Assembly: GCA_016208165.1 (NCBI GenBank)
Contig: JACQYL010000117.1
Location: 1 to 63,452 of the forward strand
Source: Deltaproteobacteria bacterium
GTDB taxonomy: Bacteria; Desulfobacterota; Desulfarculia; JACQYL01
DNA length: 63,452 nucleotides
Direction: 5' to 3'
This document shows positions 11,901 through 44,959 of the stretch, piece after piece (within the stretch, counting starts at the first letter, position 1; each line of letters starts with the position of its first letter). The translations under genes were made by a program, and so were the position numbers. The notes under the pieces are model-generated. The model was not told the DNA's origin. It saw nothing but the letters and a program-made list of their open reading frames with translations, and ran no database searches.

Positions 11901-12577
11901 TCTCCCATGACCTGATGCGCCTTGAGGGCGGACTCGAGGGACTTGCGGGAATCCTTCCGGCTCGCATGGATCTTGGCGAGCTGATAGTGCGCAAACGCAA
12001 CGTTGTCTCCCTGCTCGATCATTTTTTCGAGCAGCCGCTCGCTCCGTTGGCGCTTCAGCTCCATTTTTTCTTCGTCCAGACCATACCCGTAGTGCAGAAT
12101 GAGAAAAGGAGCCGTACCGATCCGTTCACCCTTGGCGTCGAACTGGTTATGAACGATTCCCCGGTAGCTGAATCCCATATGGTTTCTGAACAGCCGGATC
12201 TGATTGAACGTGCTGCACGGAACGTTGGTTCTACGTACGTTTTCCAATTGAAAACGATAAATGTTGCACAGCGGTTTTTCCAGGAATGCTTTGAGGCTGA
12301 GATCCGCTCTCTGCCGGCGGAACTCATCGTCCGCGTCCAGAATGAGAATGAAATCCCCCGTTACGTAAGACAAGGTAATGTTGCGCATGCCGGAAAAATC
12401 ATCGAACCATTCGTGGTAGTAGATCCGATCCGTGTATTGGCGAGCGATCTCGACCGTCCGGTCCGTGGAGCCGGTATCCACGACCACGATTTCATCTACC
12501 TCGTCCTTTATGCTCTCCAGAGCACGAGGCAGCATCTCTTCTTCATTCTTCACCATCATGCAAGCCGAAATTTTCAT
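8978..12577 (-). CDS. Double GT2 glycosyltransferase with TPR arrays
   Basis: A 1199-residue cytoplasmic protein with the plan GT2-TPR-GT2-TPR. The first GT2 domain (about 1-150) starts ISACMMVKNEEEMLPRALES and has VVVDTGSTDRT and the nucleotide-sugar/metal site ILDADDE. The second, after about residue 610, repeats it (LCMMVKNEETHLEECLASV; VVVDTGSEDRT; LIMDGDES). Both share HxWFDDFSGMRNITLSY, so the halves arose by duplication. Each is followed by tetratricopeptide repeats; the second array runs to the C-terminus. Such SPINDLY-like or GT2-TPR proteins often glycosylate proteins, and the flagellin gene is next door, so flagellin is the likely acceptor. That is inference; LPS or capsule transfer is an alternative. 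GAGAG precedes the ATG. Confidence 0.9.
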   Translation of the reverse strand: MKISACMMVKNEEEMLPRALESIKDEVDEIVVVDTGSTDRTVEIARQYTDRIYYHEWFDDFSGMRNITLSYVTGDFILILDADDEFRRQRADLSLKAFLEKPLCNIYRFQLENVRRTNVPCSTFNQIRLFRNHMGFSYRGIVHNQFDAKGERIGTAPFLILHYGYGLDEEKMELKRQRSERLLEKMIEQGDNVAFAHYQLAKIHASRKDSRKSLESALKAHQVMGEDPKQLIYQDVHYLIAANAFNLDDLETAFEETRKMLNVDPNNMDAAFILLGYYYEKKDWENLLEYYPIYLKGRKTYVEHPESFPYIINMGDHHPDAVYMYAEALIRSGRVENLEDEIKDLIEDSKRAPYFLNLLAAVLLECGKRGKAESLLETALRLNPGFDPARNNLAALRRKEETEDKVLEGPVKFHLQGVPLFKARQRLEVGAKHLGAGQFDAAEPCLVSVLEIVEKGEVIDPDRAGLLAPAFEGLAVIARKRGDNERSLEYFSKALKLEPNRLDARLQLAELLKSKKKFNEALEHAKAAVVLAPESSNALLTRALVHREAGNLREAEKDLLTLVKMHPEFPLGAFNLGSLYWAVGRRLDALHRLGKAMRTAPEQPEYARAYFDAQRGVKRYPTISLCMMVKNEETHLEECLASVVGAVDEIVVVDTGSEDRTVEIAQSYGARVYHHPWFDDFSGMRNITLSYARGEWILIMDGDESLEPEDADQLRKEAGDLSRQVVTLRVLNYLDCKKRVAEQNSIRLIRNTMGFHYRGIVHNELWYYGAGGASKVRIHHYGYDISPEKKQQKFDRTASLLEKRIQRNPDDLDAHYYLISSYRSVGRLDDALREGYQVLQLSKQRGVDLRNQFYADVYPHLGFLHIVKGDWQKALPVLEEGLEVCPEHPELQVDLAYCRFQAGNYDAALSHLEKAYDLYLKFRLGEIRPFYSVTLNDTQVVGNIANILLEMNREPEAMDKVENICRAVEDMPQRGLENVSSKVEKDDLDGARWELRWLRLAKPTEHGFVEKVGEWTIKLGQAREASLYFDRLQRVGWELSGISRALWGLALAAGGEMDRAEKEARRAVELLPNVSEPLLALTQVLEGKGQYEEAAETLVRLSEIHPDEPHIFNRIGENYYLAHRFDLAERFFVRELKEGGGSADPLNNLGVLYMGQRDFERARDHFERCLVLDPRHTEAMQNLEVCLRVKQAGKRESQP

Positions 12578-27041: not shown

Positions 27042-29621
27042 TTATGCGCCCTTGACTATCATCTCCTCGAACCGAACCACGCTGTCCTCCCAGTCGAATC
27101 GGGCCGCGGTTTCGAGCCCGCATTCGACCAGCCGGGAACGCAAGTCCGCGTCTTCGAGCAATCGTTCGACAGCTCCCGACAATTCGGAAACATCTCCGTA
27201 GGTACAGAGAAGGGCGTTTTCTCCGTCCCAACAGTAGTCTTCATTGCCTCCGTTGCGCGTGCTCACCAGGGCCGAAGCGCACGCCATGGCCTCGAGTCCC
27301 GTGAGCCCGAACCCCTCCTCTTTGGAGGTGGAAAGGAAGATGTGGGAAGACGCGTACAGCCGGGCCAGTTCGTCCTGCTCCGGGTTGCGGTAATAGAGAA
27401 ACTCGAGGTCAAACTCGGGCCGCGGCCCCATACCGAAAAGCGCGATCCTCACTTCCGGAAATCGGCTTTTCACGCGTTTCAGGGTCTCCAATCCGGATGC
27501 TCCGCCTTTCAAAGGATGCGAGGAATAGCAGTACAGCATGCGAAGGGGATCCGTCGGCCGCCTCAAATCCGGTGTCGGGTGGAAAACCCGGCGATCGATG
27601 CCGCTGTGAACGAGCCGCACCGACCTCCCGAAACGCTCCATGACGGCTCTTTGCACATGTGACGATACGGCGATCAGCTCCATGGATCCGTCCCTGTAGG
27701 TCCGTTCCGAATCCGTTTCCTCGTTTGGATCGCTGAAGAAATGCTGGGCCAGAAATACTCGCCTGAGGCCATCGCGAACGGGTATCCCGCCGATCAGCCG
27801 GTGTTGGCTGAACACGGCCACCTGGACCCGGTTCAGAACTTCATCCCACCGCTCGGGTCCGATCACGGGCGCCCCAAGTTCGAACCAGTCCGAATATTGC
27901 GGTTGCCACGCAAGCAGGAATACGGGGTACTTCTTTCCGGCCAACCGATGGGCGTATTCCAACAGAACTCGTACGCCCCCGAACGGCTGGTTGGCGCTCT
28001 CGAGGAGGATGGCTATGGCCGGTTTTCGAGAGTCCGTTGGAAACGGAACCTGCAGTTGGTCTCGAAGCGAGACAGCCCGTTCCAGCACATTGGGGTCCCG
28101 GTTTCCCAAATCGATGGAACGCCGGAAATGACGCAGAGCTAATGCCGGTTTTCCCTGTTTTTGGGCGTTGACCGCGGCAACGGAATGGGCCGCAGCATCA
28201 TCGCGGTTCAGTTCCAGCGCCTTCCGAATGTGCTCCTCGCTTTCTTTCGTATTCCCGACACTCGAGGCCAGCGCCCCCAGCCTCACCCGGATTTCTCCGT
28301 CGCCTACTCCCATTTCGGCCAACCGCTCGTACAAAAACCGGCCACCCCTGTGATCTCCCATGGAAAAGAGAACCTGCCCCAGAAGGCGACAGGATTCGAC
28401 AAATCCCGGGTCCGTTCCCCAGAAGCGCTGCAGGAAAAAAAAGTCCATTTTCGCCAACAACGGCCGAAGGGCTTGAAGATAAGCGGATATGGCGTCCACT
28501 CGATGCACGTACGTATGCCGGTCCAATACCTTCCGTCGGGCGCGGCCGGCCATCTGCCTTCTCCGGCGAGCATCGCCAAGAAACCTCCGAACCATGTCCT
28601 TCAATTCCGGCCCGGAACGGAAGACGGCGATTTCTTCGCCTTCCTCGAACAAATCAAGGATGTCTTCGCGGAAATCCGTCAAGAGAAAACCTTCCGCTGC
28701 CGGTACGTCGAAAAACCGCTGATTCAGTCCGGTTCGAACCTGAGGTCGGGAAAGATTCAAGTTGATCGCCGAAGTTCCGTAGATGCCCGGCAGGTCTCCG
28801 TAATATTGCGCCCTTCCACCGAATTGTTCGGGCCGAACCAACTCGAGCCAGTCCTCGTCCCCATACAACGTCAGGTCGAAATCCATTACCTGCGCGATCA
28901 TGCCCGCCCGGTACCGGTATGCCCGATACTCGTCAGCGAGGCGGCACAAGGCGTCCCGATCCACACTTTCCGTAGCTCCGCTCAGCTTTTTTCGCGCCTC
29001 GACGACCATCTCTTCCGGATCCCAGGATTTCCGCTCAGCCTCCTCGAAAAAACGGATCAGTTGAGGAAGCCGGCCCTCCCCGATGTCCAATGTCTTGCGG
29101 GATAAGGAGCGAAATGAACCCAAACACAGACTACCCACGAAGGTCACGTCCTGCTGGTCTCGTTTAGCTTCCGGCGCAGGGCGAAAAAGGTCCGGGTCCG
29201 TGGCGTTGGGCAGGTAGACCACGGAGGACGCCTCGAGATGCTCCTTCAATGGCTGTATGTAGGCCTGGTCAAAGCAGAAGATCGTCTGGTAGGGGTTGTC
29301 CGTACGGCGGATAGGGTCCAAATTCCAGAACGGGCTGTCCAGATGCCAGGATAGAGTGGGGATCTTGAGGAGGGCCAATACGCGGGCAAGCCTTCCCAAA
29401 GGATCGTTCAGCCCTCGATGATTCAAGGACAAAGCCGCATCGGGCTTGAACTCGATCAGTTCCTTCAGCACGCGCTTGTAGTCGTACAGAACCCACTCGT
29501 CGCCCTCCTGCTTTCGCGTGTCCAGGTGGATCTCTTTCAGGTCATGGTTCCGCAAACGTATGGATCGGGAAAGTTCGGAAATAATGAAGTCGTCCGAGGT
29601 TCTCAGGAGTGCAAATCTCAT
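27042..29621 (-). CDS. Bifunctional glycosyltransferase: CgeB-like domain, TPRs and GT4 domain
   Basis: An 859-residue protein with two glycosyltransferase units. Residues 1-390 resemble the CgeB/DUF3880 type (LSWHLDSPFWNLDP; TIFCFDQAYIQPLKEH; PNATDPDLFRP; DVPAAEGFLLTDFREDILDL). About 395-530 holds TPR-like helices (KALELNRDDAAAHSVAAVNA). About 545-859 is a GT4 domain (LVHSGIDRRVFHPTPD; a Rossmann half; EEGFGLTGLEAMACASALVS with the E-x7-E motif). It probably adds two sugars or one sugar at two sites, in the cytoplasm. The CgeB type is common in flagellin and spore glycan loci, so flagellin glycosylation is an attractive but unproved role. No strong ribosome binding site precedes the ATG. Confidence 0.88.
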   Translation of the reverse strand: MRFALLRTSDDFIISELSRSIRLRNHDLKEIHLDTRKQEGDEWVLYDYKRVLKELIEFKPDAALSLNHRGLNDPLGRLARVLALLKIPTLSWHLDSPFWNLDPIRRTDNPYQTIFCFDQAYIQPLKEHLEASSVVYLPNATDPDLFRPAPEAKRDQQDVTFVGSLCLGSFRSLSRKTLDIGEGRLPQLIRFFEEAERKSWDPEEMVVEARKKLSGATESVDRDALCRLADEYRAYRYRAGMIAQVMDFDLTLYGDEDWLELVRPEQFGGRAQYYGDLPGIYGTSAINLNLSRPQVRTGLNQRFFDVPAAEGFLLTDFREDILDLFEEGEEIAVFRSGPELKDMVRRFLGDARRRRQMAGRARRKVLDRHTYVHRVDAISAYLQALRPLLAKMDFFFLQRFWGTDPGFVESCRLLGQVLFSMGDHRGGRFLYERLAEMGVGDGEIRVRLGALASSVGNTKESEEHIRKALELNRDDAAAHSVAAVNAQKQGKPALALRHFRRSIDLGNRDPNVLERAVSLRDQLQVPFPTDSRKPAIAILLESANQPFGGVRVLLEYAHRLAGKKYPVFLLAWQPQYSDWFELGAPVIGPERWDEVLNRVQVAVFSQHRLIGGIPVRDGLRRVFLAQHFFSDPNEETDSERTYRDGSMELIAVSSHVQRAVMERFGRSVRLVHSGIDRRVFHPTPDLRRPTDPLRMLYCYSSHPLKGGASGLETLKRVKSRFPEVRIALFGMGPRPEFDLEFLYYRNPEQDELARLYASSHIFLSTSKEEGFGLTGLEAMACASALVSTRNGGNEDYCWDGENALLCTYGDVSELSGAVERLLEDADLRSRLVECGLETAARFDWEDSVVRFEEMIVKGA

Positions 29622-29828: not shown

Positions 29829-31196
29829 CTACCGGTCATCTTCCGCCACCATTCTGTTCCTGCCTCCTGTTTTGGCTCTATACAACGCCTGATCGGCTCG
29901 CTCGAAAAACGATGCAGCGGTATCGGCGGCTTTCAAAGAAGCCAACCCCAGGCTCAGCGACACTTCCACGTAGGTGTCCGCGTCTTTGTGAAGCTTGAAA
30001 GGCTTCGACCCCACCGCGGCGACAATCTCGCGACCCAACTTCCGGGCCTTCTCTTCAGGCATATCTTTAAACAGAATGAGGAACTCGTCCCCTCCCAGCC
30101 GGCCGAGAAAGTCATCTTTCCGTATGCTGGAACGGGCAATCTCAACCACCTTTTGCAGTACTCGATCGCCGGTCTTGTGCCCGTGGGTATCGTTGATGCG
30201 TTTGAAGTGATCTATGTCAAATATCATCATGACGGCCGATGCGTTGTCCTGAGCCATCAACGTTTCGAGCATTTTGTCAATCGCTCCGCGGTTGAACGCT
30301 TTTGTCAGGGGATCCACCATGGAGCGAAGTTTAAACAGCTTGGCTTCTTCCTCAGCCTTCTTGGATTGCGCCTTTACTCGCTGAAATTTTTCTTTGGTCG
30401 CCTCCAGTTTCTTCTGCAGTTTTTCCATCCTCACTGCCATCTTCCGGGATCGATCGTCTTCCGTTTTCCTCTTCTCGGTAAGGGCCGCCCTGATGTCGTT
30501 TATTTTCTGCATGACCCGTTGCTGGATATGGTTGAGGTCCAGATTGAGGCGAAAAGCGGTTTCGATCTGGACGATGTCCTCTCGCATACGTTCCTGAAAA
30601 GCTTGTTCCCCCTGGGCCCGTTCGGCTTCATCCGCGCCGCCGACACTGCTCAGGAATTCCTCCTCGAACTTCAGGAGCTGGAACGTAATGCTCTTTATCA
30701 ATTCATTTCGAGAGCGATTTTCGATATCGACGTGCTCGCGCAACGACGCAAAAAGAGAAAAAATGTTCTCTAGATACTTGTAGTAGACGTCCTGATCAAA
30801 CTTTTGCCTGATCTGTGTCGCCACTCCGCCGGCCTTGTTCCTGAGTTCACCCGGCCAATACAGAGCGAATTGGCCGCAGACCTGTATCAGCAACTCGGCC
30901 ATGAGTTCCAGATATCTGTTTTCAACCTCCTCGATCGAAAGACCGAATCCTCCCGTCGTTTTTTCAGGGGGCTCTTTCTGCACCTCCTGCTGAAACACGC
31001 TTTCCCGCAGGTCGGAAACGAGATGCTCCACCGTTTTCAGATACGGTCGGTCCTGATTCAGTTCCCGTTTAAGCTCGCTCATGTGATTTCGCGCAGCGTC
31101 ACTCACCAAGGTTTCTCCCGGAATCAGAGACACCGCGCTTTTAAGGATTCCGCGATCCTTTTCCGGAAGATCGTCTCTCAAATTTTCAGAATCCAT
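29829..31196 (-). CDS. GGDEF diguanylate cyclase with N-terminal helical domain
   Basis: A 455-residue protein. The C-terminal 165 residues are a full GGDEF domain (DPLTKAFNRGAIDKMLE; MMIFDIDHFKRINDTHGH; LGRLGGDEFLILFKD), with the active-site GGDEF intact and an RxxD inhibitory site five residues upstream. It should make cyclic di-GMP from GTP, with product feedback. The first 290 residues are helical with long coiled-coil runs (TEDDRSRKMAVRMEKLQKKL); no transmembrane segment or known sensor domain is seen. It lies before the flagellar block, and c-di-GMP may influence motility. Its 5' part carries one copy of the 56-bp repeat found inverted at 31592-31647. Confidence 0.93.
   Translation of the reverse strand: MDSENLRDDLPEKDRGILKSAVSLIPGETLVSDAARNHMSELKRELNQDRPYLKTVEHLVSDLRESVFQQEVQKEPPEKTTGGFGLSIEEVENRYLELMAELLIQVCGQFALYWPGELRNKAGGVATQIRQKFDQDVYYKYLENIFSLFASLREHVDIENRSRNELIKSITFQLLKFEEEFLSSVGGADEAERAQGEQAFQERMREDIVQIETAFRLNLDLNHIQQRVMQKINDIRAALTEKRKTEDDRSRKMAVRMEKLQKKLEATKEKFQRVKAQSKKAEEEAKLFKLRSMVDPLTKAFNRGAIDKMLETLMAQDNASAVMMIFDIDHFKRINDTHGHKTGDRVLQKVVEIARSSIRKDDFLGRLGGDEFLILFKDMPEEKARKLGREIVAAVGSKPFKLHKDADTYVEVSLSLGLASLKAADTAASFFERADQALYRAKTGGRNRMVAEDDR
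31009..31064 (-). repeat. 56-bp inverted repeat, copy 1 (inside GGDEF gene)
   Basis: These 56 bases, inside the GGDEF coding sequence (the stretch encoding about ELNQDRPYLKTVEHLVSDL), are an exact reverse complement of 31592-31647. Since they fit the GGDEF reading frame, this copy is the likely donor. See the second copy for the recipient site. Confidence 0.9.
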
Positions 31197-31591: not shown

Positions 31592-32317
31592 GAACTGAAT
31601 CAGGACCGACCGTATCTGAAAACGGTGGAGCATCTCGTTTCCGACCTCCACAGGAGCACCCGGCGCCGTAGATGCTACTGCCGCATTCGTCTCAACAACG
31701 TTCAGGGTCAGACCGTCCGCCACTGCGTTTTCAGCGGAGATCGAGTCTGTCGGCCCATATTCCGGGATGCTCAGCTCGCCGGTATACAGCGGCATGGGCA
31801 TACTGTCCCGGGCAAGGGCGTCGAGACATTCCTTTTCCACGGAGCGGGCGTCCGGCGAATCAGCGTTTTCTTCACCGGCTTTCAAGGCGGTGGACTCGGA
31901 AGAAAGCGATTGCCGGGTTTCCGTGTCTTTTTCTGGCTTGGAGCTCTGGATTTCGGGAATAGACAGGCTCTGTCCTACCTGAATCAGGTCGGGATTCTCC
32001 AGGCCGTTCAAATCCGCAATGGCCTTCACATCCACTCCGTAAGCCTTGGATAACCCCCAGAGCGTATCACCCGAGCAAACTGTATGTACCAGGCGTTGAC
32101 TCGAGAGTTTCAGTTGGTCCTGAAATGTGGCCGCATCCGTTCCGGAGGCCTCGTCTTCAAATGTCAGTCCGGCCCCCTCTTTCAGAAACCAGCGCCCCGA
32201 CTCCCCCAATTTCCCCACGGCGTGAGGATTCTGACGTTGAATTTGCTTCCACGTTACGTTAAACCGCTCTTTAATGGCCGTAATGGTGTCGTGCTTCTGG
32301 ACAACGTACTCGACCAT
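31565..32317 (-). CDS. LysM-domain protein, probably with rearranged C-terminus
   Basis: A 250-residue protein. There are two LysM-like modules: a weak one at 4-50 (YVVQKHDTITAIKERFNVT) and a good one at about 80-125 (HTVCSGDTLWGLSKAYGVDV; NPDLIQVGQSLSIPE). A Ser/Glu-rich low-complexity linker follows. LysM binds peptidoglycan glycan strands; no signal peptide is seen at this start. The last 26 residues (from VGNEML on) come from the inverted 56-bp repeat plus a few further codons, so the natural C-terminus appears replaced. It begins 10 bases after fliW, so it is probably co-transcribed with the flagellar operon. Confidence 0.7.
   Translation of the reverse strand: MVEYVVQKHDTITAIKERFNVTWKQIQRQNPHAVGKLGESGRWFLKEGAGLTFEDEASGTDAATFQDQLKLSSQRLVHTVCSGDTLWGLSKAYGVDVKAIADLNGLENPDLIQVGQSLSIPEIQSSKPEKDTETRQSLSSESTALKAGEENADSPDARSVEKECLDALARDSMPMPLYTGELSIPEYGPTDSISAENAVADGLTLNVVETNAAVASTAPGAPVEVGNEMLHRFQIRSVLIQFGFPSPPTD
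31592..31647 (+). repeat. 56-bp inverted repeat, copy 2 (in LysM gene 3' end)
   Basis: This copy reads on the plus strand as the GGDEF gene reads on the minus strand, so the two copies are in inverted orientation, 527 bases apart. It sits exactly where the LysM frame loses its natural end and where the barrel remnant begins. There are no differences in 56 bases, so the event is recent, or the copy is an assembly or amplification artefact. Confidence 0.9.
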
Positions 32318-32327
32318 AACCGCGTCT

Positions 32328-32756
32328 CTATCCCAGGAATCTGTGACGGGTCGAATAATCCGAATCCGTCAAAACCAGCTGTTTTGCCACGTTGATTTTC
32401 GTGTTGATCAGTATGGGACCCGCGAGATTCGCTGTAATCCGGGAAGGATCCTGCCCCACGGTGACAATACAGTACACCACACAATCCTCCACGTTTTCGA
32501 TAGAAATCGCCGCGGCGTCTTCCGGCTCCAAAGCGATCCTGTAATCCGGTTCTATGGACCGTGGATCAACGACCACAAAGGCCAATTCCGGGTCTTCAGC
32601 GGACTGGAGCCACTTAAACGGACTCGATTTGTCCGATTCGAGAAAGAAATACCGCTCAAAACCGGAAAATCCGAGAATGCCCTCTTTCACCGACATTATG
32701 GCCGTCTCTTCGACGTCTAGGTCACCAAAACGGGTCGTGCTAACTTTCATGGTCAT
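32328..32756 (-). CDS. fliW: Flagellar assembly factor FliW
   Basis: A 142-residue beta-barrel-like protein. FliW binds flagellin or CsrA: free FliW sequesters CsrA and so relieves repression of flagellin translation. Family features seen: FGDLDVEETAIMSVKEGILG, FSGFERYFFLE, PFKWLQSAEDPELAFVVVDP and the late PILINTKINVAKQLVLTDS. Length is typical. Its start overlaps the csrA stop region (ATG 32756 or 32750 lies before the csrA TAG at 32742-32740), a coupling that fixes the ratio of the two. In this window the probable CsrA target lies in the flagellin leader at 7903-7947. Confidence 0.97.
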   Translation of the reverse strand: MTMKVSTTRFGDLDVEETAIMSVKEGILGFSGFERYFFLESDKSSPFKWLQSAEDPELAFVVVDPRSIEPDYRIALEPEDAAAISIENVEDCVVYCIVTVGQDPSRITANLAGPILINTKINVAKQLVLTDSDYSTRHRFLG

Positions 32757-33120: not shown

Positions 33121-36100
33121 CTAATCCAAGAAGTCCAACAGACTGAGAGATACCAGACGTGAAGCAGACTGCAACGTCGCCTGAACCGCTTGTTCCTGGT
33201 TGAGCAAACGCGTTATAGCCTCCGTGATGTCTACGTCTTCCGCTTCCGACAGCAGTCCTTTGAGTTCCAGACTATACTGCTCGATGTACTGCTGTGTTTG
33301 ATCGACGATCTGGAGTCTCGCTCCTGATTCCACCAAATGCTCCGAAAACCGGTCCATGCCTGCCTGCAGGTTTGCGGCTACGTTCTCGAGCGATTCGGAA
33401 TCGTTATTCATCAGAGCCTGTTTGAAATCATACAGGGTATCCAATATGTCCCGACCGGCCGAAAGGCCCAGGAGTTGCGCAGTATCGTCATCTACGCTTA
33501 ACACCACGGGTACGGCGCCGTCAATCAGTGATTCCAGTTTGAGCGCCGTTGAATTCTTATTGAATTTCGATCGCACTTCAACGTCGGCCGAATTGATTCG
33601 GGCCATCAGTTCACGCATGTTCCGGACGCCTTCCAGATCCACTTCAACCCGTTTGGAGCCGTTGACGATTTCTATCTTACCCGGATCCACGCCTGCTCCA
33701 CCGTAAAGGTCTCCGACCCCGGTGTACGCCTTCAGCAGAGGATTGAGGTCCGTGCCCGTAATACTGCTCGGCATACCCTCCGCCCCTGCGGTTTCGTCCG
33801 AGTATTGGGGCGAAAACGGACCGGCTCCGGAAAACACCCAATCGGTTGTAATGCCCAGAACGGATGCCGCGGATGACCCGGCGCCGGCGGGCAGCGGGCT
33901 CGTAACCCAATGGATTTCCATCTCCGTGGATGGGGTTATGGCGAACACGCCCCTATCCGGCGAGTAATCCACCTGGAACGTGGCAGTGGTCTCGTTCGTG
34001 GGATCCGTAATGTCCAAAGCCTGCTCGAGGACGTTTTTCAACGCTTTCGCCATCTGATTGCCGTTATACGTCCCCGGAGTCAGCGTCGCCTGGTAGGTCG
34101 TCCCGGACGCTGCCGAAGGTATGCTGAAATAGACGGTATTGATGTTGTCATCGATCGTAATCAGGCGATCCTCTTTGTAGATTCCCAGATCCCGCGCCGT
34201 ATCCGACATGAAAACCCGCATGTTCGTCACGCGATCCCTCGGGTCGTTGGTGTCGATCAGCTCGAGACCGTTGCCTTCCCCGTTCATCAGCACCGTGATG
34301 TTCACTCCGGCCGAAGCAAAACCCGCGTTCATGCGCTCTACGAAATCATGCACCGTAAGATCCGGGATGACAAATTGACTGGTGTAGGACACTTCGCCCA
34401 CCAGCGTCGAACCATTGACGAATCCCAGAAGATCCGAAGCGTTCCCCGCCACGGTCCAATCGAGCGTTACCGGCGGCGCTCCGTCTTCATTGATAAATGT
34501 GAAGGTTCCATCCCGGAACTCCACGGTGTAGTCATGACCGCCGCCGGAAGCCAGGGATTCCGCCTCCATCCGGCTTTCAATCGCCTGCGCCAGCTGGGCC
34601 CCGTCATAGAAACCCGGCGGTATTTCCACCTGCGCCACCCCTCCGTCATTGAATCGAATGATGTTGTTCCGGTTTGCGCCGCCCCCGATCACTTCGAAAG
34701 GCGCCATATCGATCCGGGCCAGGTTTCCGGCTCGATCCATCGCGCTGACGTGGTAAGTTTGTACGGCGTAGTCACTCGTGTACGAAAGGGCTCCGGATGT
34801 AGCATACGGTCTGAAACCCAACAGTCCCAGAGCGGTTGAGGCCGGATCCGCCCAATCTAGGTCGAGGGAGCCTCCGCGCTTCGCTATGCTGAATCGTCCG
34901 TCGGAGTAGTTAACCGAAAAGTCCATGGACGCTGTCGCGTTATTGAATTCCTGTTCTATCACGGCCGCCAACTCCTCGCCGGTGTAGGTCCCGGAAGGGA
35001 TGGCAAGGACTCCTCCTCCCAGATCGCTGTTGTAGCTGATCGAGTTGTTGAAGGCATCCACCACGTATTGCGGCGGGGCTTCCATACGAATACCCGCTCC
35101 CCCATTCAGATCCTTTACAAAAACGGAGTCCGTACCGTCGTCATAGTAGGAATTTTCCCGATACTCGCGCGCCAGATCGAGAGACAGCGTCTGTCCGGCC
35201 GCCCATCCCGAAACGTCCAGGTGCAGATCCCCCACCAGGTCGCCATCGAAATCCAACTCGATACTGGAAGCATTGGATGAAGTTACGGATAGGGACGGAA
35301 AACCGCCGTTGTCGGCAATGGCCCAGGTTCCGCCCGCCTGGAGTGTGAGATCGATTTGGTGATTCGACGGATTCAGGATGGAATCCAGATTCAGCAGTGT
35401 CGTCGAATCCAAACTCCCCGGCCCGCTTCCTGCGATCGTAATTCCGGCTTCAGTGGAAAACCCGATCGTTCTCAAGAAATCGCTTTGCCTCTCAGGGCCC
35501 TCACCGGCCATCAGTCGAATGGTGGACGTCATGCCCGAGCTTTGGGAAGTAATGGCAAACTGGCCCCCCCGGCTTTCGGAATAATCGACTTTCACGGCGT
35601 TGGTGGCCGCGTTGATCCTGGACTGCATGTGATCGGCCAGCTCTTCAGCGGTATATGCACCGGCGGCCAGAGTGATCTCCGTAACCCCCCCGCCGTCCAC
35701 GTTGATCCGGAACCGGTCGTTGACACCGCTAAGTATCGTGAATTCGACCTCTTCCTCGCTGGTGACCACATCGCCGGCGTTCAACGGATTCGGATCCCGA
35801 TTCGCAAATGCGAGCGTCTCCCTGATCTCGCTGGCCGTCCACAGCAATTGCATGTCGGAGTTGTTCGACTGATTGTTCGTTATGGTGAACCGGTTCAGTG
35901 TCTCCTGATCGTCGATAAAGTCGTACTCCACGCTGTACTCAAACGAGAATCCGGAAGCCGCGCTCTTGGCTTCCATCGCCTGTGCAACAAAACGCGCCAC
36001 CTCTTTTCCGTCGTACACGACTCCTCGAACCGCATCACTGTCCGCCAGGAGATCCGCCGTGACGGTAAAATCCTTCCGGTTAAACGTTGATTCCACCTGC

Positions 36101-37398
36101 GTTTGATCGAACGCCGTACCGGCCGTCTCCGTGGCGGTGAACGTATCCGAACCCGGCACGCCCGCTTTGGCCGCTACCGTCAGTTCATCGGTGGTCGCGT
36201 CGTAACGCGCTGTGAGCCATTGCGAAAGCACCGTATTTCCATTGACGGCGTCCGCCAGATCGGCCCCCAACGCGTCCTGGGTAGGGGGAACGCCATAGTT
36301 CACGGTTATGGTTTCTTCCGTATTCCCAAATTGGAAGTTGATCGAGTACGTGGTGTCCCCCAGCGCCGCCGAAACGGTGTTCACCGCCGCATAGCCCGTT
36401 TCCACGAACACCAGCGAGTCGTTGGTATCGTCAAACACAAATCCGGAATCGACTTCAGCCACGGCGCCGGAGAACCGGCTGTGACTGGTGCTGAACGGCG
36501 TGGTGACGGTCCTCATCTTATAACTATTGCCCGTTTCGTCCGAAGCTTTGGCCGTGAGGCTGAAGACACCGTCTTCGTATGTGGCGTCGACGGCGTCGTT
36601 GAGATCAAGGTCGTGCCGGACGGCTCGCACCAGGCCGCGTCCGAGTTCATCCTGGGTTGCCGAAGCACTGGTGGTATAAGAAACCGTGTGATCCACGCCG
36701 TCATCCAGCGTGATCGTGATGTCGTAGGTGCTATTATCGGCGGGGTTGGATAACACCCAGTTGTTCAGTTGCGCCTGTTGTCCCGTGGCCATACCACTAT
36801 ACGCATACGCCAGTTTCCCGGTGTTATTATGGGGCTCGGCGATGACCGGGTTCAGATCCGCCACCAGGAAGTCACTTCCCGGGAGGTTGTAGGCCTGGAA
36901 AACCCCGTCGTTTATTTCCGCCTGTATGCTCTTGCCATTCCCGTTGTATGTGCCGTCGGCATTGAATGGCGCATATGCGGTCCGGGTGCCGCCGAAAATG
37001 TAGGAATTGCCGACTCGCGTGTTGCCCAGACGAATCAAGCTCTCGATTACACCTTCTATCTCCGTCACAGCGGCCTGCCGGCTTTCCGCGCTTTGAGTTC
37101 CATTGGCCTGTTGGACCGCCAACGTTTTGGCCCCCTGAAGCAGATTCGACGCTTCCTGCAGCACGCTCTCCGTGGTGGACAACCAGGAATCCGCACGCAC
37201 TATGTTTCGAGGATATTGTTCGGTCCTCGAAATCACTTCCCTGTAAGACAGGATGCGCCCCATATCCAGCGGCCCGTCCGAAGCCTTGAGCACCTGTTTT
37301 CCGGTGCTCACCTGGGTTTGATATTCGAGCAGGCGTTCTTGATTGTTCAGGATGCCGCCAAGTATGGACTGGTAAATCATGTTTTGGGTTACTCGCAT
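33121..37398 (-). CDS. flgL: Giant hook-filament junction protein FlgL
   Basis: A 1425-residue FlgL, three to five times the usual 300-400. The terminal parts are normal: residues 1-150 have MRVTQNMIYQSILGGILNNQ, QVSTGKQVLKASDGPLDMGR and GNSYIFGGTRTAYAPFN; the last 100 residues are helical (LLSEAEDVDITEAITRLLNQ). Residues about 150-1310 form a huge central insertion. It contains four copies of a 80-100-residue module (556-648, 782-862, 910-993, 1083-1183) and two related units at about 225-297 and 351-426. GGGAGGA precedes the ATG. FlgL joins hook to filament; the insertion should project outside the junction, and may match the giant flagellin filament in girth. It lies in flgM-flgN-flgK-flgL order. 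Confidence 0.96.
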   Translation of the reverse strand: MRVTQNMIYQSILGGILNNQERLLEYQTQVSTGKQVLKASDGPLDMGRILSYREVISRTEQYPRNIVRADSWLSTTESVLQEASNLLQGAKTLAVQQANGTQSAESRQAAVTEIEGVIESLIRLGNTRVGNSYIFGGTRTAYAPFNADGTYNGNGKSIQAEINDGVFQAYNLPGSDFLVADLNPVIAEPHNNTGKLAYAYSGMATGQQAQLNNWVLSNPADNSTYDITITLDDGVDHTVSYTTSASATQDELGRGLVRAVRHDLDLNDAVDATYEDGVFSLTAKASDETGNSYKMRTVTTPFSTSHSRFSGAVAEVDSGFVFDDTNDSLVFVETGYAAVNTVSAALGDTTYSINFQFGNTEETITVNYGVPPTQDALGADLADAVNGNTVLSQWLTARYDATTDELTVAAKAGVPGSDTFTATETAGTAFDQTQVESTFNRKDFTVTADLLADSDAVRGVVYDGKEVARFVAQAMEAKSAASGFSFEYSVEYDFIDDQETLNRFTITNNQSNNSDMQLLWTASEIRETLAFANRDPNPLNAGDVVTSEEEVEFTILSGVNDRFRINVDGGGVTEITLAAGAYTAEELADHMQSRINAATNAVKVDYSESRGGQFAITSQSSGMTSTIRLMAGEGPERQSDFLRTIGFSTEAGITIAGSGPGSLDSTTLLNLDSILNPSNHQIDLTLQAGGTWAIADNGGFPSLSVTSSNASSIELDFDGDLVGDLHLDVSGWAAGQTLSLDLAREYRENSYYDDGTDSVFVKDLNGGAGIRMEAPPQYVVDAFNNSISYNSDLGGGVLAIPSGTYTGEELAAVIEQEFNNATASMDFSVNYSDGRFSIAKRGGSLDLDWADPASTALGLLGFRPYATSGALSYTSDYAVQTYHVSAMDRAGNLARIDMAPFEVIGGGANRNNIIRFNDGGVAQVEIPPGFYDGAQLAQAIESRMEAESLASGGGHDYTVEFRDGTFTFINEDGAPPVTLDWTVAGNASDLLGFVNGSTLVGEVSYTSQFVIPDLTVHDFVERMNAGFASAGVNITVLMNGEGNGLELIDTNDPRDRVTNMRVFMSDTARDLGIYKEDRLITIDDNINTVYFSIPSAASGTTYQATLTPGTYNGNQMAKALKNVLEQALDITDPTNETTATFQVDYSPDRGVFAITPSTEMEIHWVTSPLPAGAGSSAASVLGITTDWVFSGAGPFSPQYSDETAGAEGMPSSITGTDLNPLLKAYTGVGDLYGGAGVDPGKIEIVNGSKRVEVDLEGVRNMRELMARINSADVEVRSKFNKNSTALKLESLIDGAVPVVLSVDDDTAQLLGLSAGRDILDTLYDFKQALMNNDSESLENVAANLQAGMDRFSEHLVESGARLQIVDQTQQYIEQYSLELKGLLSEAEDVDITEAITRLLNQEQAVQATLQSASRLVSLSLLDFLD
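33850..35733 (-). repeat. Four-fold protein repeat encoded within flgL
   Basis: Modules at 35455-35733, 34813-35055, 34420-34671 and 33850-34152 each encode a strand ending in [L/I]xxGxYxxxxLAxxh, a short helix, then VxYxxxxGxFxI and a hydrophobic strand and closing LG[F/I]. Examples: IPSGTYTGEELAAVIE, IPPGFYDGAQLAQAIE, LAAGAYTAEELADHMQ, LTPGTYNGNQMAKALK. The copies are diverged at the DNA level, so the duplications are old. The pattern is of adhesin-like or fibre-like domains displayed outside the junction. Confidence 0.75.
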
Positions 37399-37419: not shown

Positions 37420-39147
37420 TTACCTTCGGAGTGTATCCAGAAGAGTCTGAAAGAGCTGATCCGTTACGGTGATCAGCTTGCTGCTCGCTTGAAAGGCATA
37501 TTGGAACTTCATTATCTGGGTCATCTCTTCGTCCAGGGATACTCCGGAAACCGAAGATTTGAGTACTTCCAGCTGCTCCACGATACTGCTGTAATGTTGT
37601 TCATTGGTCTCGGCCTCCAGTTTGATGACCCCAACGCGACCTACGATTTCCCCGAAATAGGTTTCAAAGGTAGCCGTTCCTCCGTTCATGACGTTGCCCA
37701 TCTGCAACTCGTTGATACGCAACGCCACACTATTGTCGCCCGCGTCCGGAGATTCCCCTGCAGCGATCTTGTCCGTGTTCGCCACCACTTCCGAGGCCAC
37801 CGCCATTTTGGAAGCCATACCCTGCGAGCCGCTTATATGATACGTGTCCCCGGGCTGAGGGACCAACGGCGGATTGAACGGAGGAGTGGTGCCGTCCGCT
37901 ATGGTGATCTGCATTCCGTCGAAGCGGATCGGAATACCGCTGGCATAGGTCCAGACATAATCACCGGGCGCGCCCGTGGGATCCTTGAGTTCGTCCCCCG
38001 TCCGTTCGTTGACAATCCTGAACTCGGTTCCCGAAATAAACTCGATCCTATAATCGTCCATGGTCAGGGCAGTTATGTCAAATACCGAGCCTTCGAGGGT
38101 TAGATGGCCCGCGTTCCGGTCGTCACTCTGTATGGTGGGCGGGAGAATCTCGAAGAACCGATTACCGCTGGTTCCGTCGAGTCCATATCCGCTATAGTGC
38201 AGCTTGTTGACTTCATTGACCACGCTCGCGGCCAGCAGGTCCAGGTCTTCCAGGATTCCCGGAATGGTCTCGTCACGCAGAGTCAGCCACGCAGCCAGCT
38301 TCCCCTTCGAAATATTCGGCATGACGCTGTCCTGATTGCTCCCACCCATATATTTTATGTCGTGGAATTCCGACTCCGACAGCAGGTCGTCCGCTGAGAG
38401 ATCCCATTTATGTTGCCCCGACACCAACGGACTTCCGCCCGACAAGAAGACATGAAATACGGGCTCCCCGCTGGGGCCGGACTCCTCGAGATACTCGATA
38501 TCCAGATACGTGGCCAACTCATCGACGAGTTGGTCCCTCTTATCCCTCAAATCGTTGGCCACAACGTCCCGGCCCGTTTCAGCGGATTGGATGAGGCTGT
38601 TTAGTTCTCGTATTCGCTCCGTTATACTATTGACTTCCGCTATGGCGCCCTGAATCTGAACATCCAGGGAACGCCTCGTCTGGTTGAGGGCGTCGCTTCT
38701 GGATTCAAAGGCCTGGGCCAGTTTGTTCGCAGCGGAGACCACGGCGTTTCTTTCGGTGTATCCGCCGGGCTCGTTGGCAAGGTCGGACCATGCGTTCCAG
38801 AAGTCGTTCAAGGACTTGTTAATCCCATACTCTTCGTTCTCGGTAAGAATGGTCTCCACCTCGTTGAGAACCCGATTTTGGGCTTCCCAGCGAGACTGAA
38901 ACTGGCTTTCCCGATTCGTTTCACGGTAAAGAAAGGTGTCCACTTGGCGCCGGATGGACTGAATGTTAACACCATTTCCCAGTTGCCCGAAGGCGGCTTC
39001 CGATGGACGTTCACTTGTGAACACCACTCTCTGACGCGAGTATCCTTCCGTGTTCACGTTGGCCACGTTGTGGCCGGCGACACCCAGCGCCACTTGGTTA
39101 CGTAGCAGTGCGTTGGCCGCCAGTCCCAGCAATGAGTTTAAATTCAT
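37420..39147 (-). CDS. flgK: Flagellar hook-associated protein FlgK
   Basis: A 575-residue hook-filament junction protein. N-terminal rod/hook-type block LLGLAANALLRNQVALGVAG followed by HNVANVNTEGYSRQRVVF; C-terminal SLDEEMTQIMKFQYAFQASS and ITVTDQLFQTLLDTLR, both coiled-coil halves of the D0/D1 domain. Length is close to the family norm, in contrast with the giant FlgL next to it. GAGGGAGGG precedes the ATG. It is followed by flgL after 21 bases. It is exported by the flagellar type III system with FlgN as its likely chaperone. Confidence 0.97.
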   Translation of the reverse strand: MNLNSLLGLAANALLRNQVALGVAGHNVANVNTEGYSRQRVVFTSERPSEAAFGQLGNGVNIQSIRRQVDTFLYRETNRESQFQSRWEAQNRVLNEVETILTENEEYGINKSLNDFWNAWSDLANEPGGYTERNAVVSAANKLAQAFESRSDALNQTRRSLDVQIQGAIAEVNSITERIRELNSLIQSAETGRDVVANDLRDKRDQLVDELATYLDIEYLEESGPSGEPVFHVFLSGGSPLVSGQHKWDLSADDLLSESEFHDIKYMGGSNQDSVMPNISKGKLAAWLTLRDETIPGILEDLDLLAASVVNEVNKLHYSGYGLDGTSGNRFFEILPPTIQSDDRNAGHLTLEGSVFDITALTMDDYRIEFISGTEFRIVNERTGDELKDPTGAPGDYVWTYASGIPIRFDGMQITIADGTTPPFNPPLVPQPGDTYHISGSQGMASKMAVASEVVANTDKIAAGESPDAGDNSVALRINELQMGNVMNGGTATFETYFGEIVGRVGVIKLEAETNEQHYSSIVEQLEVLKSSVSGVSLDEEMTQIMKFQYAFQASSKLITVTDQLFQTLLDTLRR

Positions 39148-39165: not shown

Positions 39166-39669
39166 TTATGCGTTTCTAGAAACGAGTCTTCCGCTATTCG
39201 GTTGAATGTTCCGCATGATACCGGACGATCTGTACGTCTCGGTCTCGTTACGGTTCGGGATCAACGTCAGCAAAAACCGCTTGAAGTGACGGCGGGAATG
39301 CTCGACCAATCTACGGTTTTGCTCGTTGGCTGACAGAACGGCTCGAGTTAGATGCTGTAAACGGATGCGAACCTCGTTCAGACGATGGTTCCATGGGGGA
39401 GGGGCCACTGCCGCTATGCTGGAAAGATTGGCCGACTCGGAAGGTAGTTTCAGGGCTCCCGCTAGTTCGAGGGCAATCCTTTGACGCTCTGCTTCGAACC
39501 TGCGGATGTCTTCGATCAGTCGACTTTTTGAGTCGTTGTTTAGTCCGAGTTCGTCCGACGCCAAACGGGTCAGGAACGTCCGTTCCGCCCGAATGGTATC
39601 GGCGAGTGTCTCGTAGCAGTCCGCTTCTCGGGTTAAAATCCCGAAAAGATCGCAAATCAGATCTTCCAC
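39166..39669 (-). CDS. flgN: FlgN-type flagellar export chaperone
   Basis: A 167-residue helical protein: MEDLICDLFGILTREADCYE, then long amphipathic helices (FEAERQRIALELAGALKLPS), and a basic C-terminus. It is recognised mainly by position between flgM and flgK and by the FlgN-like hydrophobic N-terminal helix. FlgN binds FlgK and FlgL C-termini before export; here it would serve one normal and one giant client. The start is GTG at 39669, with AGGAGG before it. Confidence 0.85.
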   Translation of the reverse strand: MEDLICDLFGILTREADCYETLADTIRAERTFLTRLASDELGLNNDSKSRLIEDIRRFEAERQRIALELAGALKLPSESANLSSIAAVAPPPWNHRLNEVRIRLQHLTRAVLSANEQNRRLVEHSRRHFKRFLLTLIPNRNETETYRSSGIMRNIQPNSGRLVSRNA

Positions 39670-41737: not shown

Positions 41738-43654
41738 TCAATTAACGATGACCGTAGCGCTCGCCAGCTGGCTGTCCGAATCGTATACGACCAGGAGTCC
41801 GGTATACGTCCCGGCCACGGCCGTAGGATCGACAGTTACGGTAACCTGGTTTCCGTTCACCGCGGCAGAAGCCACGGAGTTGTTCGTCACCTGAGCGCTG
41901 TACGGCGGTACGCCTCCCGTTACCAGGAAGGTCAGCAGATCGCCCGCCGCTGCTGACAGAGAACTCGGAGTAATCGCCAGCATCTCCGGTTCTCTCAGTA
42001 TCGTAACGCCGGCCGTGAGTGTCTGATTGTTGGCGTCCACGATTCGAATCACGTCCGAATAGGTCCCTTCCACTGCGTCACTCGCAATCGTCATGGTGAT
42101 CACGTTTCCGCTGACGCTCAGGCTCGCGACATCTATGAGCGTCGTATCCATGACCGTTACCTGATACGGTTCCACACCGCAGAACACCAGGTACCTGAGT
42201 TGGTTTCCCGCACTGCCCGAGGCTGTTCCGGGTTCCGTCTTAAAGGCGCAGCCGGTTCCGGCAACCACGACTTCCCCGAATACCCGGAGGCCGTTGGCGT
42301 CGTATACTTCGACCACTTCCGGATACGAAGTGTCCTCCTCGGCCGGGTTGGCCGAAATCGTGAAGTGGACTTCATTTCCGTTCCGGATGACCGCCGAACC
42401 AACGGAAGCATTGTTCACCAATGCTTCGTATGGCGGCGTTCCTCCGAAAAGGAAGAACACGATCGTATCTTCTTTCTGGCCCTTCTGACTCAGGGGATAT
42501 ATCTGGAAAGCCTTGCTGACCATGATACGACACGTATCTTCGTCACCGCGGCTGTCTTCGATTCGTATCACGGTGATTCCTTCATTCTGAGCCGTAAAAC
42601 GAACCCGGTTAAACGACAGCTCCTCCAAGGCGCCCACGCTTTGATCGCCGTTGAAAAAGAAGTACGGCGGCAACCCGTAATTCGCCGTGAGAATGAGTTC
42701 CTCTCCGGGAAGCAGATTGGCCTCGCTGGGAGTAATCATGGTGCGGTTCTGGATGACGGTTATGGTGGAATAGCCCTGGGTGTCGTTGTCGTCGTCGACG
42801 ATGGCTTCTGTTGTTCCTAACTGAAAAGCGGTGAATACCGCCTCGTCGTTGTCAGCCCAACCTCCGGGGGGAGCGCTGAGGACTCCGACGGAGGGGTCCG
42901 ACAGATGCCAGTCAAAATAGGGCGGAGTTCCGCCGTTGGCTCTTAACGTGATCGATTCACCCAAACTTAACGTGACCCTATTCGGAACGATCTTCGGCTC
43001 TCCGGCCACGATGTCCAGAGTTGCCGCAGCGGCCAGGTTCTTGGAATCGAACACCGTGATCTTCAGCTTGCCGGCGGCCAAGGGCATTACAAAAAGGTTC
43101 TTTCCCGAGCCGTCAGGTACGACTTGCGCCAGGTATGGTTTATCCAGCGTCCAGAAGTAGGGGGGAGTTCCGCCCGATCCCACAAAACGCATGGTCGGCG
43201 TCGGTTCGATGTCCAGGGGCACCGTTGCCTTGGGCGGGCTTATGGTGGGAAACAGATCGGTTATAGTGATTTCGAGGCTTCCCCAGTTGCCGGCGCTGTC
43301 CGTGACCCAAATGGTTACTTCGCGCGTAGGCCCGATACCCCAGAGATAGTCCGAAGCCACCAGGTAAGTGCTTGATCCGTCGGGAGCGGTGCGACTCTCG
43401 TCAAAGCTGGACCACGTCTGGTCTCCGCTGCTGCGGAGTGACCAGAAATACTTGGGGGAACCGCCGGTCACGCTCAGATGAAGATCTTCCCCATAAAACA
43501 ACGACACACCGTCCGGGGAATGGATGGCCAGAATGGGACCCGCGGGCCCGGAAGGGTCCTGGTTCGAGGATCCGTCGGAGCCGCCGCCTCCGCCACATCC
43601 CATCATCAGAACGGCGACGAGAAACACCCACCCATGGAACATCGCTTTTTTCAT
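41738..43654 (-). CDS. Large lipoprotein with Ig-like GGxPPY repeats
   Basis: A 638-residue lipoprotein. The signal peptide MKKAMFHGWVFLVAVLMMG-C ends in a lipobox, with acylated Cys19 followed by Gly/Ser-rich linker (GGGGGSDGSS). The rest is beta-rich and repeats the motif GGxPPYxx (GGSPKYFW, GGTPPYFW, GGTPPYFDW, YGLPPYFFF, GGTPPYEAL, CGVEPYQVT, GGVPPYSAQ) about every 75-90 residues, each within an Ig-like or cadherin-like sandwich. The protein is probably anchored to the inner or outer membrane in the periplasm. It sits between flgH and flgI in the same strand, so a flagellar-basal-body or envelope role is plausible but unproved. Its paralogs follow upstream. Confidence 0.75.
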   Translation of the reverse strand: MKKAMFHGWVFLVAVLMMGCGGGGGSDGSSNQDPSGPAGPILAIHSPDGVSLFYGEDLHLSVTGGSPKYFWSLRSSGDQTWSSFDESRTAPDGSSTYLVASDYLWGIGPTREVTIWVTDSAGNWGSLEITITDLFPTISPPKATVPLDIEPTPTMRFVGSGGTPPYFWTLDKPYLAQVVPDGSGKNLFVMPLAAGKLKITVFDSKNLAAAATLDIVAGEPKIVPNRVTLSLGESITLRANGGTPPYFDWHLSDPSVGVLSAPPGGWADNDEAVFTAFQLGTTEAIVDDDNDTQGYSTITVIQNRTMITPSEANLLPGEELILTANYGLPPYFFFNGDQSVGALEELSFNRVRFTAQNEGITVIRIEDSRGDEDTCRIMVSKAFQIYPLSQKGQKEDTIVFFLFGGTPPYEALVNNASVGSAVIRNGNEVHFTISANPAEEDTSYPEVVEVYDANGLRVFGEVVVAGTGCAFKTEPGTASGSAGNQLRYLVFCGVEPYQVTVMDTTLIDVASLSVSGNVITMTIASDAVEGTYSDVIRIVDANNQTLTAGVTILREPEMLAITPSSLSAAAGDLLTFLVTGGVPPYSAQVTNNSVASAAVNGNQVTVTVDPTAVAGTYTGLLVVYDSDSQLASATVIVN

Positions 43655-43724
43655 TGCTTCCCCTGCTTCGTTGATCCGGAGAGCCGAGTAGCACCCGTCT
43701 CCATCGTTATCATTCGGACGTACG

Positions 43725-44959
43725 TCAGTTCGCTACCACGACATCCACCGCGGCCTTCAATCCGCCTACATCATAAATCTCGATCACGTCCGTCCACGTT
43801 GTCGCCTCCGCCGCGGCGTCAACGCTCGCAGTGAATTCATATTGACCGCTCGTCTGGCTGAGAACCGGCTGAGTCACCGTACCGAAGCGGTAATCTTTCA
43901 ACAGCGCCGAATACGGAGGAATACCTCCCTGCACCAGGAATGTCAGTCCCGTGCTGCCCTGCATGGCGGTCACGCTGCCGGGAAGAACCCTCAGCGCGTC
44001 CGCAATGGTAATCCTCGCCACTGCATTCACCTGCCGTGCGTCTTCCACCACCACGGTCGCAACGCCCGGGTCGTTACCCGTCTGAAAGATCGCCGAGAGA
44101 TCGTCTTCCCCGATGGGAATAAGATCCCCCAGTTGGGGGTTTTCGTTGGTCCAGAAATACGGACTCAAGCCATATCGCACCGTCAAAGTCACAAAATCAT
44201 TTCGTCCGAGCACCGCGGCCGATGGGCTGATGGCGATTTCGTCCTGAAGCTCCGTTACCGTAACGCTCGCCACGGCTTTCAGGCCGGCGCTGTCCTCGAG
44301 TACGAGATCCGACATACCCGCATTAAGAGCGGTGACATCAACAGTCGTCGCGCTGCCGTCGAAGTCGCCAAGCTGGATGATATTGGGATCCGAGACATAC
44401 AATGTGTACGGGGGGGTGCCGTCGGACAGACGAAAGGACACCGTCGATTCGTTGGACACGGTTACCACCGAGGGAGTGATGTTCGGATTCTGCTCGAGAA
44501 TCGTAATCACCGCCGTATTTTGAACATTGCGGGAATCGCGAACGGTGAGCGTTAGCGTACCAGCCAATTTCGGAATCAGGGTAGCCATCGACCCGTCGCT
44601 GTTTAAGAACAGATCGGCCAGATACGGCTTATCCGCGGACCAGAAGAACGGCCCATCGCCTCCGGAGGCAAAAAGACGCATCGTCGGCGTGCTCAATGTG
44701 TCCAGGGCGATCGTCGCCTGACTTGGAGTTACCTGGAGCACGTCAGGTTCTCCGATGACCAGGCATACGGAGGCGTTCCTCCTATGGCCGTCAACAGAAG
44801 CTCGTCGCCAAAATACAGGGAAGCCTGCTCAGGATTGACCTTCACAGACCGTACTGTTACGGAAGCGGAGCCACTCGATCCGCCGCCGCATGCCGCCGCC
44901 AGAATCCAAACCAATGAAAGAACCGCAATCAATATCCACTGAACCTTGAGCTTCATCAT
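43725..44959 (-). pseudogene. Broken paralog of the GGxPPY lipoprotein
   Basis: The 5' frame opens at ATG 44959 (GAGGAAAC before it) with a lipoprotein signal (IAVLSLVWILAAACGGGSSG) and one IGGTPPYAW module, then ends at 44729. The remaining 3' frame, recognisable as the same family by VIGEPDVLQVTPSQATI, GGDGPFFW, DGTPPYTL, YGLSPYFW and GGIPPYSAL, is in another frame from about 44770 down to 43725. Compared with the intact paralog, about 50 residues are missing where the frames cross. So a deletion with frameshift has inactivated it. A sequencing indel plus natural divergence is the alternative. Confidence 0.7.

Follow-up and report, generated by a model that had tools for sequence, protein, structure and literature searches.

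A 63,452-nt stretch of a Deltaproteobacteria bacterium (Desulfobacterota, class Desulfarculia, JACQYL01; assembly GCA_016208165.1, contig JACQYL010000117.1, positions 1 to 63,452), hereafter the window, contains an flgL gene of 1,425 codons plus stop, read as a single uninterrupted frame on the minus strand (33121–37398). We favor the view that the product is a functional FlgL which grew by nested insertion, and that its subunits carry an outward chain of domains, forming a collar at the filament base. This view draws on sequence comparison, structure prediction and analogy. Enlarged FlgLs are already known; this giant would have been built by nested insertion, with a module common to several axial proteins.

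The best family model for the giant protein is that of FlgL (NCBIfam TIGR02550), with 238.5 bits against a curated cut-off of 127.2. It aligns at both termini, by N-terminal positions 1–202 and C-terminal positions 257–387. By domain test the protein is not a flagellin: Flagellin_N matched and Flagellin_C did not, and flagellin-named models gave at most 43 bits versus 238 for the FlgL model. The genes lie in the order flgM-flgN-flgK-flgL-fliW on one strand, with flgI (assigned by reading its sequence alone) and a rod-binding protein also upstream. About 20 nt separate the flgK stop codon (TAA) from the flgL start, and a GGGAGG ribosome site is present. The protein is thus most likely a working FlgL, as predicted from its sequence. 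Between the two D1 halves lie ∼1,119 residues (∼196–1314; 118.8 kDa, isoelectric point 4.1, no cysteine). A preliminary description of this DNA had placed a FlgL of 1,425 amino acids (aa) here, with more than 1,100 residues inserted, and both statements are borne out. Its remark that no junction protein of this size had been described goes too far; the size is indeed giant, but FlgLs reach 750 aa in Campylobacter and 1,100–1,255 aa in the genome's own class.

To characterize the repeats, we used a hidden Markov model (HMM) of the module built solely from copies in other genomes, the window genome being excluded. This model gave 266 bits on the giant FlgL, with five significant stretches (independent E-values, iE, of 5e-11 to 5e-20) at residues ∼452–537, 543–649, 772–864, 901–999 and 1074–1178. 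None of 1,000 shuffled sequences was reported against it at E ≤ 10. The modules first noticed are therefore real, but there are five copies by the independent HMM, not four. Two repeats of another type (type-2), also part of the preliminary description, are confirmed at residues ∼206–310 and 319–440. These match each other by HMM, and no relative beyond each other was found among the sequences searched in this analysis. Module copies are 20–37% identical to a reference copy, with the GxY and LGF residues retained in divergent copies, and in the module tree those of the giant form no cluster of their own. Module b instead groups with the second module of family f18 FlgLs (support 0.89) and with b-type copies of other FlgL and FlgE proteins (0.95). 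The low identity and the lack of mutual clustering indicate that the modules are old and diversified. A recent tandem array is ruled out on the same grounds and by the absence of any long DNA repeat inside flgL. Flagellin_IN (PF07196) matched nowhere in the genome, while control sequences did match.

The positions of the insertions were read against a backbone profile of three family f18 FlgLs (742–744 aa; FlgLs of the family are listed at 748–758 aa). This profile is collinear with the giant over residues 2–∼195, 457–649, 1014–1075 (profile 461–521) and 1208–1424 (profile 522–742). Module m4 sits exactly between profile positions 521 (residue 1075) and 522 (residue 1208). A DRAGN motif at residue 888 lies between m2 and m3, and the ITDRAGN of backbone domain B1 is conserved in the FlgL alignment. 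With the DRAGN strand falling between them, m2 and m3 look like two interruptions of a single backbone domain, B1. Likewise, a type-2 repeat apparently splits module a. That the extra copies occupy loops and junctions of an f18-like backbone argues for growth of the giant by nested insertion. Whole-protein prediction for a 742-aa collinear relative gave four small, separate domains in addition to the D0–D1 helices (mean predicted local distance difference test score, pLDDT, 83.5), and its best matches in the PDB were FlgL (Z 23.1, 1.7 Å over 212 residues). Coordinates of all parts are collected in Table 1.

Table 1. Parts of the giant FlgL and other genes of the window
Feature	Position	Strand	Basis
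flgN, export chaperone for FlgK/FlgL	39166..39669	(-)	PF05130 1.5e-22
flgK	37420..39147	(-)	575 aa, ordinary size; TIGR02492 349 bits; module HMM negative
flgL	33121..37398	(-)	single open reading frame; TIGR02550 238 bits
D0-D1 N-terminal half, residues 1-195	36814..37398	(-)	TIGR02550 and Flagellin_N; collinear with G108/G143/G171 FlgL
Type-2 domain copy 1, ~residues 196-312	36463..36813	(-)	HMM match to copy 2
Putative first strands of module a, residues 313-340, EVDSGFVFDDTNDSLVF	36379..36462	(-)	by eye against L081 AVDSGFDFVTGNNDQMVF
Type-2 domain copy 2, residues 341-451	36046..36378	(-)	apparently inside module a loop; presumed insertion
Rest of module a, residues 452-537	35788..36045	(-)	independent HMM iE 2.9e-11
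Module b, residues 543-649	35452..35772	(-)	independent HMM iE 4.5e-20
Extra uncharacterised domain, ~residues 660-757	35128..35421	(-)	absent from f18 FlgL backbone
Start of backbone domain B1, residues 758-771, KDLNGGAGI	35086..35127	(-)	by eye against f18 ISDLNLGEGV
Inserted module m2, residues 772-879	34762..35085	(-)	iE 8.4e-18
B1 strand with conserved DRAGN motif, residues 880-896	34711..34761	(-)	DRAGN at residue 888
Inserted module m3, residues 897-1010	34369..34710	(-)	iE 8.1e-18
Rest of backbone domain B1, residues 1011-1074	34177..34368	(-)	f18 profile 461-521 on residues 1014-1075
Inserted module m4, residues 1075-1200	33799..34176	(-)	iE 5.2e-11; between f18 profile 521 and 522
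Backbone domain B2, residues 1201-1314	33457..33798	(-)	f18 profile from 522 on residues from 1208
D1-D0 C-terminal half, residues 1315-1425	33124..33456	(-)	TIGR02550 positions 257-387
fliW, downstream neighbour	32328..32756	(-)	PF02623 2.1e-38
Flagellin, 935 aa	5087..7894	(-)	PF00669 and PF00700

The module is present in 39 of 395 sampled genomes of the phylum and in 17 of 100 sampled Nitrospirota genomes (there in FlgK/FlgL), as well as in one Tectomicrobia FlgL. Its carriers in the phylum are FlgL (2–8 copies), FlgK (1–8 copies, up to 1,386 aa), FlgE (1–4) and FliD (1–2), so the search for the module in other flagellar proteins, suggested at the outset, succeeded. One copy was also seen in a 403-aa, weakly DUF3383-like protein of genome G072 (L193:1851–3059), which has no FlgL match, and in the flgK of G108 (L094:6632–6880 and downstream) an in-frame TAG stands beside the module (468 + 207 codons). 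Large FlgLs are not confined to module carriers. Going by open-frame lengths, which were used throughout the survey, FlgLs of 1,100–1,255 aa are common in the window genome's own class. Those of its families f2 and f3 reach 1,255 aa without the GxY module, and profile–profile comparison found no module in the own-class giants. Enlargement therefore occurred more than once. Elsewhere in the phylum, a FlgL of family f11 extends to at least 1,663 aa. The FlgL-like frame on L128, from Planctomycetota, is 1,268 aa long, lacks the module and represents another independent enlargement. Transfer of flgL from another class was considered and not adopted: the tree puts the giant flgL outside the own-class FlgLs, but grouping it with the class was not rejected (approximately unbiased test, p-AU 0.094).

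We also asked what the module resembles. AlphaFold2 prediction of the m2–m3 pair gave a mean pLDDT of 74, with m2 blocks mostly at 81–95. The top match of the predicted module in a structural aligner was the EhV-201 penton (Z 10.9, 1.9 Å, 91 residues, 26% identity), followed by the PBCV-1 penton (Z 9.0) and the E217 phage sheath (Z 8.3). Flagellin (best Z 7.3) and FliD (best Z 5.9) ranked below these. The preliminary description had proposed structure prediction and a search of flagellar and phage-tail fibres, and it is the sheath match that answers to the phage-tail part of that search. Comparison of a sequence profile with PDB sequences ranked the same penton and sheath proteins at the top, at 8e-5 (EhV-201 penton, 8.2e-5), 1e-3, and 1e-3 to 4e-3. 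DUF3383 matched 10 of 45 module copies, below its cut-off (best 9.6e-6). Foldseek gave no significant match of the predicted module in the PDB, and a putative penton at 2e-4 among viral structure predictions. Searches by tblastn with window or FlgK module copies found no match in phages, and none was confirmed in viral contigs. Judged from sequence and models, shared ancestry of the module with viral penton and tail-sheath domains is plausible. Tentatively, we suggest that the module could be an unnamed, exchangeable surface domain that both moves among FlgE, FlgK, FlgL and FliD genes and has ancestry in common with penton and phage sheath domains. If true, flagella and virus particles share one pool of decorating domains.

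These observations can be assembled into a model. The starting point would be a FlgL of the ∼750-aa type, arranged D0D1 - module a - module b - B1 - B2 - D1D0. Copies of the exchangeable strand-helix-strand module would then have entered the exposed D2 domains at loops and junctions; an unrelated second repeat (type-2) would have been inserted as well. The helical D0–D1 ends are expected to form the FlgL layer of the hook–filament junction, with the core polymerizing normally, and each subunit would bear an outward chain of some eight to ten small acidic domains. In Salmonella, this layer has 11 subunits with exposed D2 (PMC12221982). If 11 copies assemble here too, the collar around the filament base would amount to ∼1.3 MDa. 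A collar follows naturally from the geometry, whereas the 11-copy ring and the outward projection are drawn by analogy. Surface contact or shielding would be the most natural benefit, and is the weakest step of the explanation. Several points weigh against the model. Two B1 boundaries and the place where module a is split were set by eye, and the direction of change, insertion as opposed to loss in relatives, is judged from the nesting. The genome's only FliD_C match, a fliD of 1352 codons (contig C54, L085:4761–8819, minus strand), is split by one in-frame TGA, which could reflect a decaying flagellum or an assembly error.

Size matching, in which FlgL was enlarged along with large flagellins and a long FliD, keeping the outer radius and seating the cap, strikes us as unlikely. 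In this genome the filament side is all large (FlgL 1425, flagellins 935 and 941, FliD 1352 codons), unlike the hook side (FlgK 575, FlgE frame 508), and the bulky D2 of Campylobacter FlgL affects cap geometry (PMC12221982). Across genomes, FlgL length correlates weakly with that of flagellin (rho 0.42, n = 65) and of FliD (rho 0.30, n = 97), values that ignore kinship between genomes, yet outside the class the FlgL–flagellin rho is only 0.18 (p = 0.17). Exceptions occur in both directions, with FlgL/flagellin lengths of 399/1125, 326/992, 874/279 and 747/287, FliDs of 1037–1186 beside FlgLs of 300–309, and a FlgL of 887 beside a FliD of 470. As a rule, then, the earlier proposal that FlgL is a structural match for the giant flagellin is unsupported. 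The second flagellin of this genome (941 aa; L086:1908–4733, on another contig) is 84% identical to the 935-aa copy over the first 140 residues; within the phylum, flagellin N-termini come closest in family f27 (71–73%) and family f11 (∼60–66%).

We likewise give little credence to a dedicated adhesin or ligand-binding collar, whose modules would bind a surface, glycan or prey. The middle of the same genome's FliD holds a lectin-like Laminin_G_3 domain, and the modules form exposed repeats resembling exposed capsid/penton and sheath domains. But FlgL itself has no known binding domain, the likeness is to structural assembly proteins, and 11 junction copies are few compared with thousands of flagellins. 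Neutral inflation, whereby exposed loops tolerate inserts and modules accrue by recombination among axial genes without selected benefit, seems more doubtful still. Length does vary widely among families with the same core, and the carrier differs (FlgK in f39, FlgL here, FlgE elsewhere). However, GxY and LGF are kept in copies of 20–37% identity, and a FlgL size of ∼1,100 aa is held throughout family f2, which points to constraint on modules and size.

It is very unlikely that two genes were joined in error: although the genome is metagenome-assembled (142 contigs, 4.4% contamination) and its fliD has an in-frame stop, one frame runs from the FlgL N-terminus to the C-terminus with even GC content (0.51–0.60 along the whole gene), no Ns and no long repeats, the giant is collinear with intact shorter FlgLs, and other giant FlgLs independently carry the same module. 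Such a join had been named as what would overturn the preliminary description, and frame, GC, Ns and repeats show no sign of it. A single-protein scan of the genome contigs for a close relative found none. Elsewhere in the window, a perfect 56-nt inverted repeat (31009–31064 and 31592–31647) makes the end of a LysM gene duplicate, reversed, part of the adjoining GGDEF gene; it could stem from a genuine inversion or from a fold-back error in assembly.

Within the flagellar cluster upstream of flgI (41738–44741) are two proteins with repeated GGxPPY immunoglobulin-like domains, the first of which starts like a lipoprotein. Near the flagellin gene are large glycosyltransferase plus tetratricopeptide repeat proteins (8978–12577 and 27042–29621), possibly for flagellin glycosylation.

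Whether the remaining parts of such flagella match their flagellins in size was a question raised by the authors of the giant-flagellin study (PMC6248924). In this genome and its relatives other parts are large, but their sizes do not change in step: depending on the lineage, one module family has enlarged hook, FlgK, FlgL or cap. This offers a route to follow the rebuilding of flagellar surfaces around an untouched polymerizing core, and our reading predicts a visible collar at the hook–filament junction.

Among known systems, Salmonella FlgL (HAP3; 317 aa, PDB 9GO6) shares with the giant the D0–D1 ends, gene order and operon FlgN, but has a small D2 in place of ∼1,119 residues. Campylobacter and Helicobacter FlgLs (750–827 aa; PDB 9GSX; the 827-position NCBIfam model NF006265) have an enlarged D2, described as a 'bulky D2 domain' in cryo-electron microscopy of the 750-aa Campylobacter protein (PMC12221982). 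They are half the giant's size, however; the giant matches NF006265 via its ends only, and the GxY module is not seen there. Family f18 FlgLs have the same a–b module pair and are collinear over their full length, without type-2 domains or m2–m4. The f11 FlgL also has the a–b pair, with eight module copies, and expanded mainly by repeating modules. In the FlgK of G261 (1,386 aa) and the FlgE of G064 (924 aa), the same module family is arranged in tandem between conserved ends; the difference lies in the carrier, FlgL itself being ∼300 aa in G092, G261 and G342. Viral pentons (EhV-201, PBCV-1), the E217/Pa193 sheath, DUF3383 and DUF5901 resemble the module in predicted fold and, weakly, in sequence, but the penton and sheath proteins are viral assembly proteins with one domain copy in an unrelated core. 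Giant flagellins grew, as here, by internal domain duplication and insertion, though in the flagellin instead of a junction protein and with different inserts (PMC6248924).

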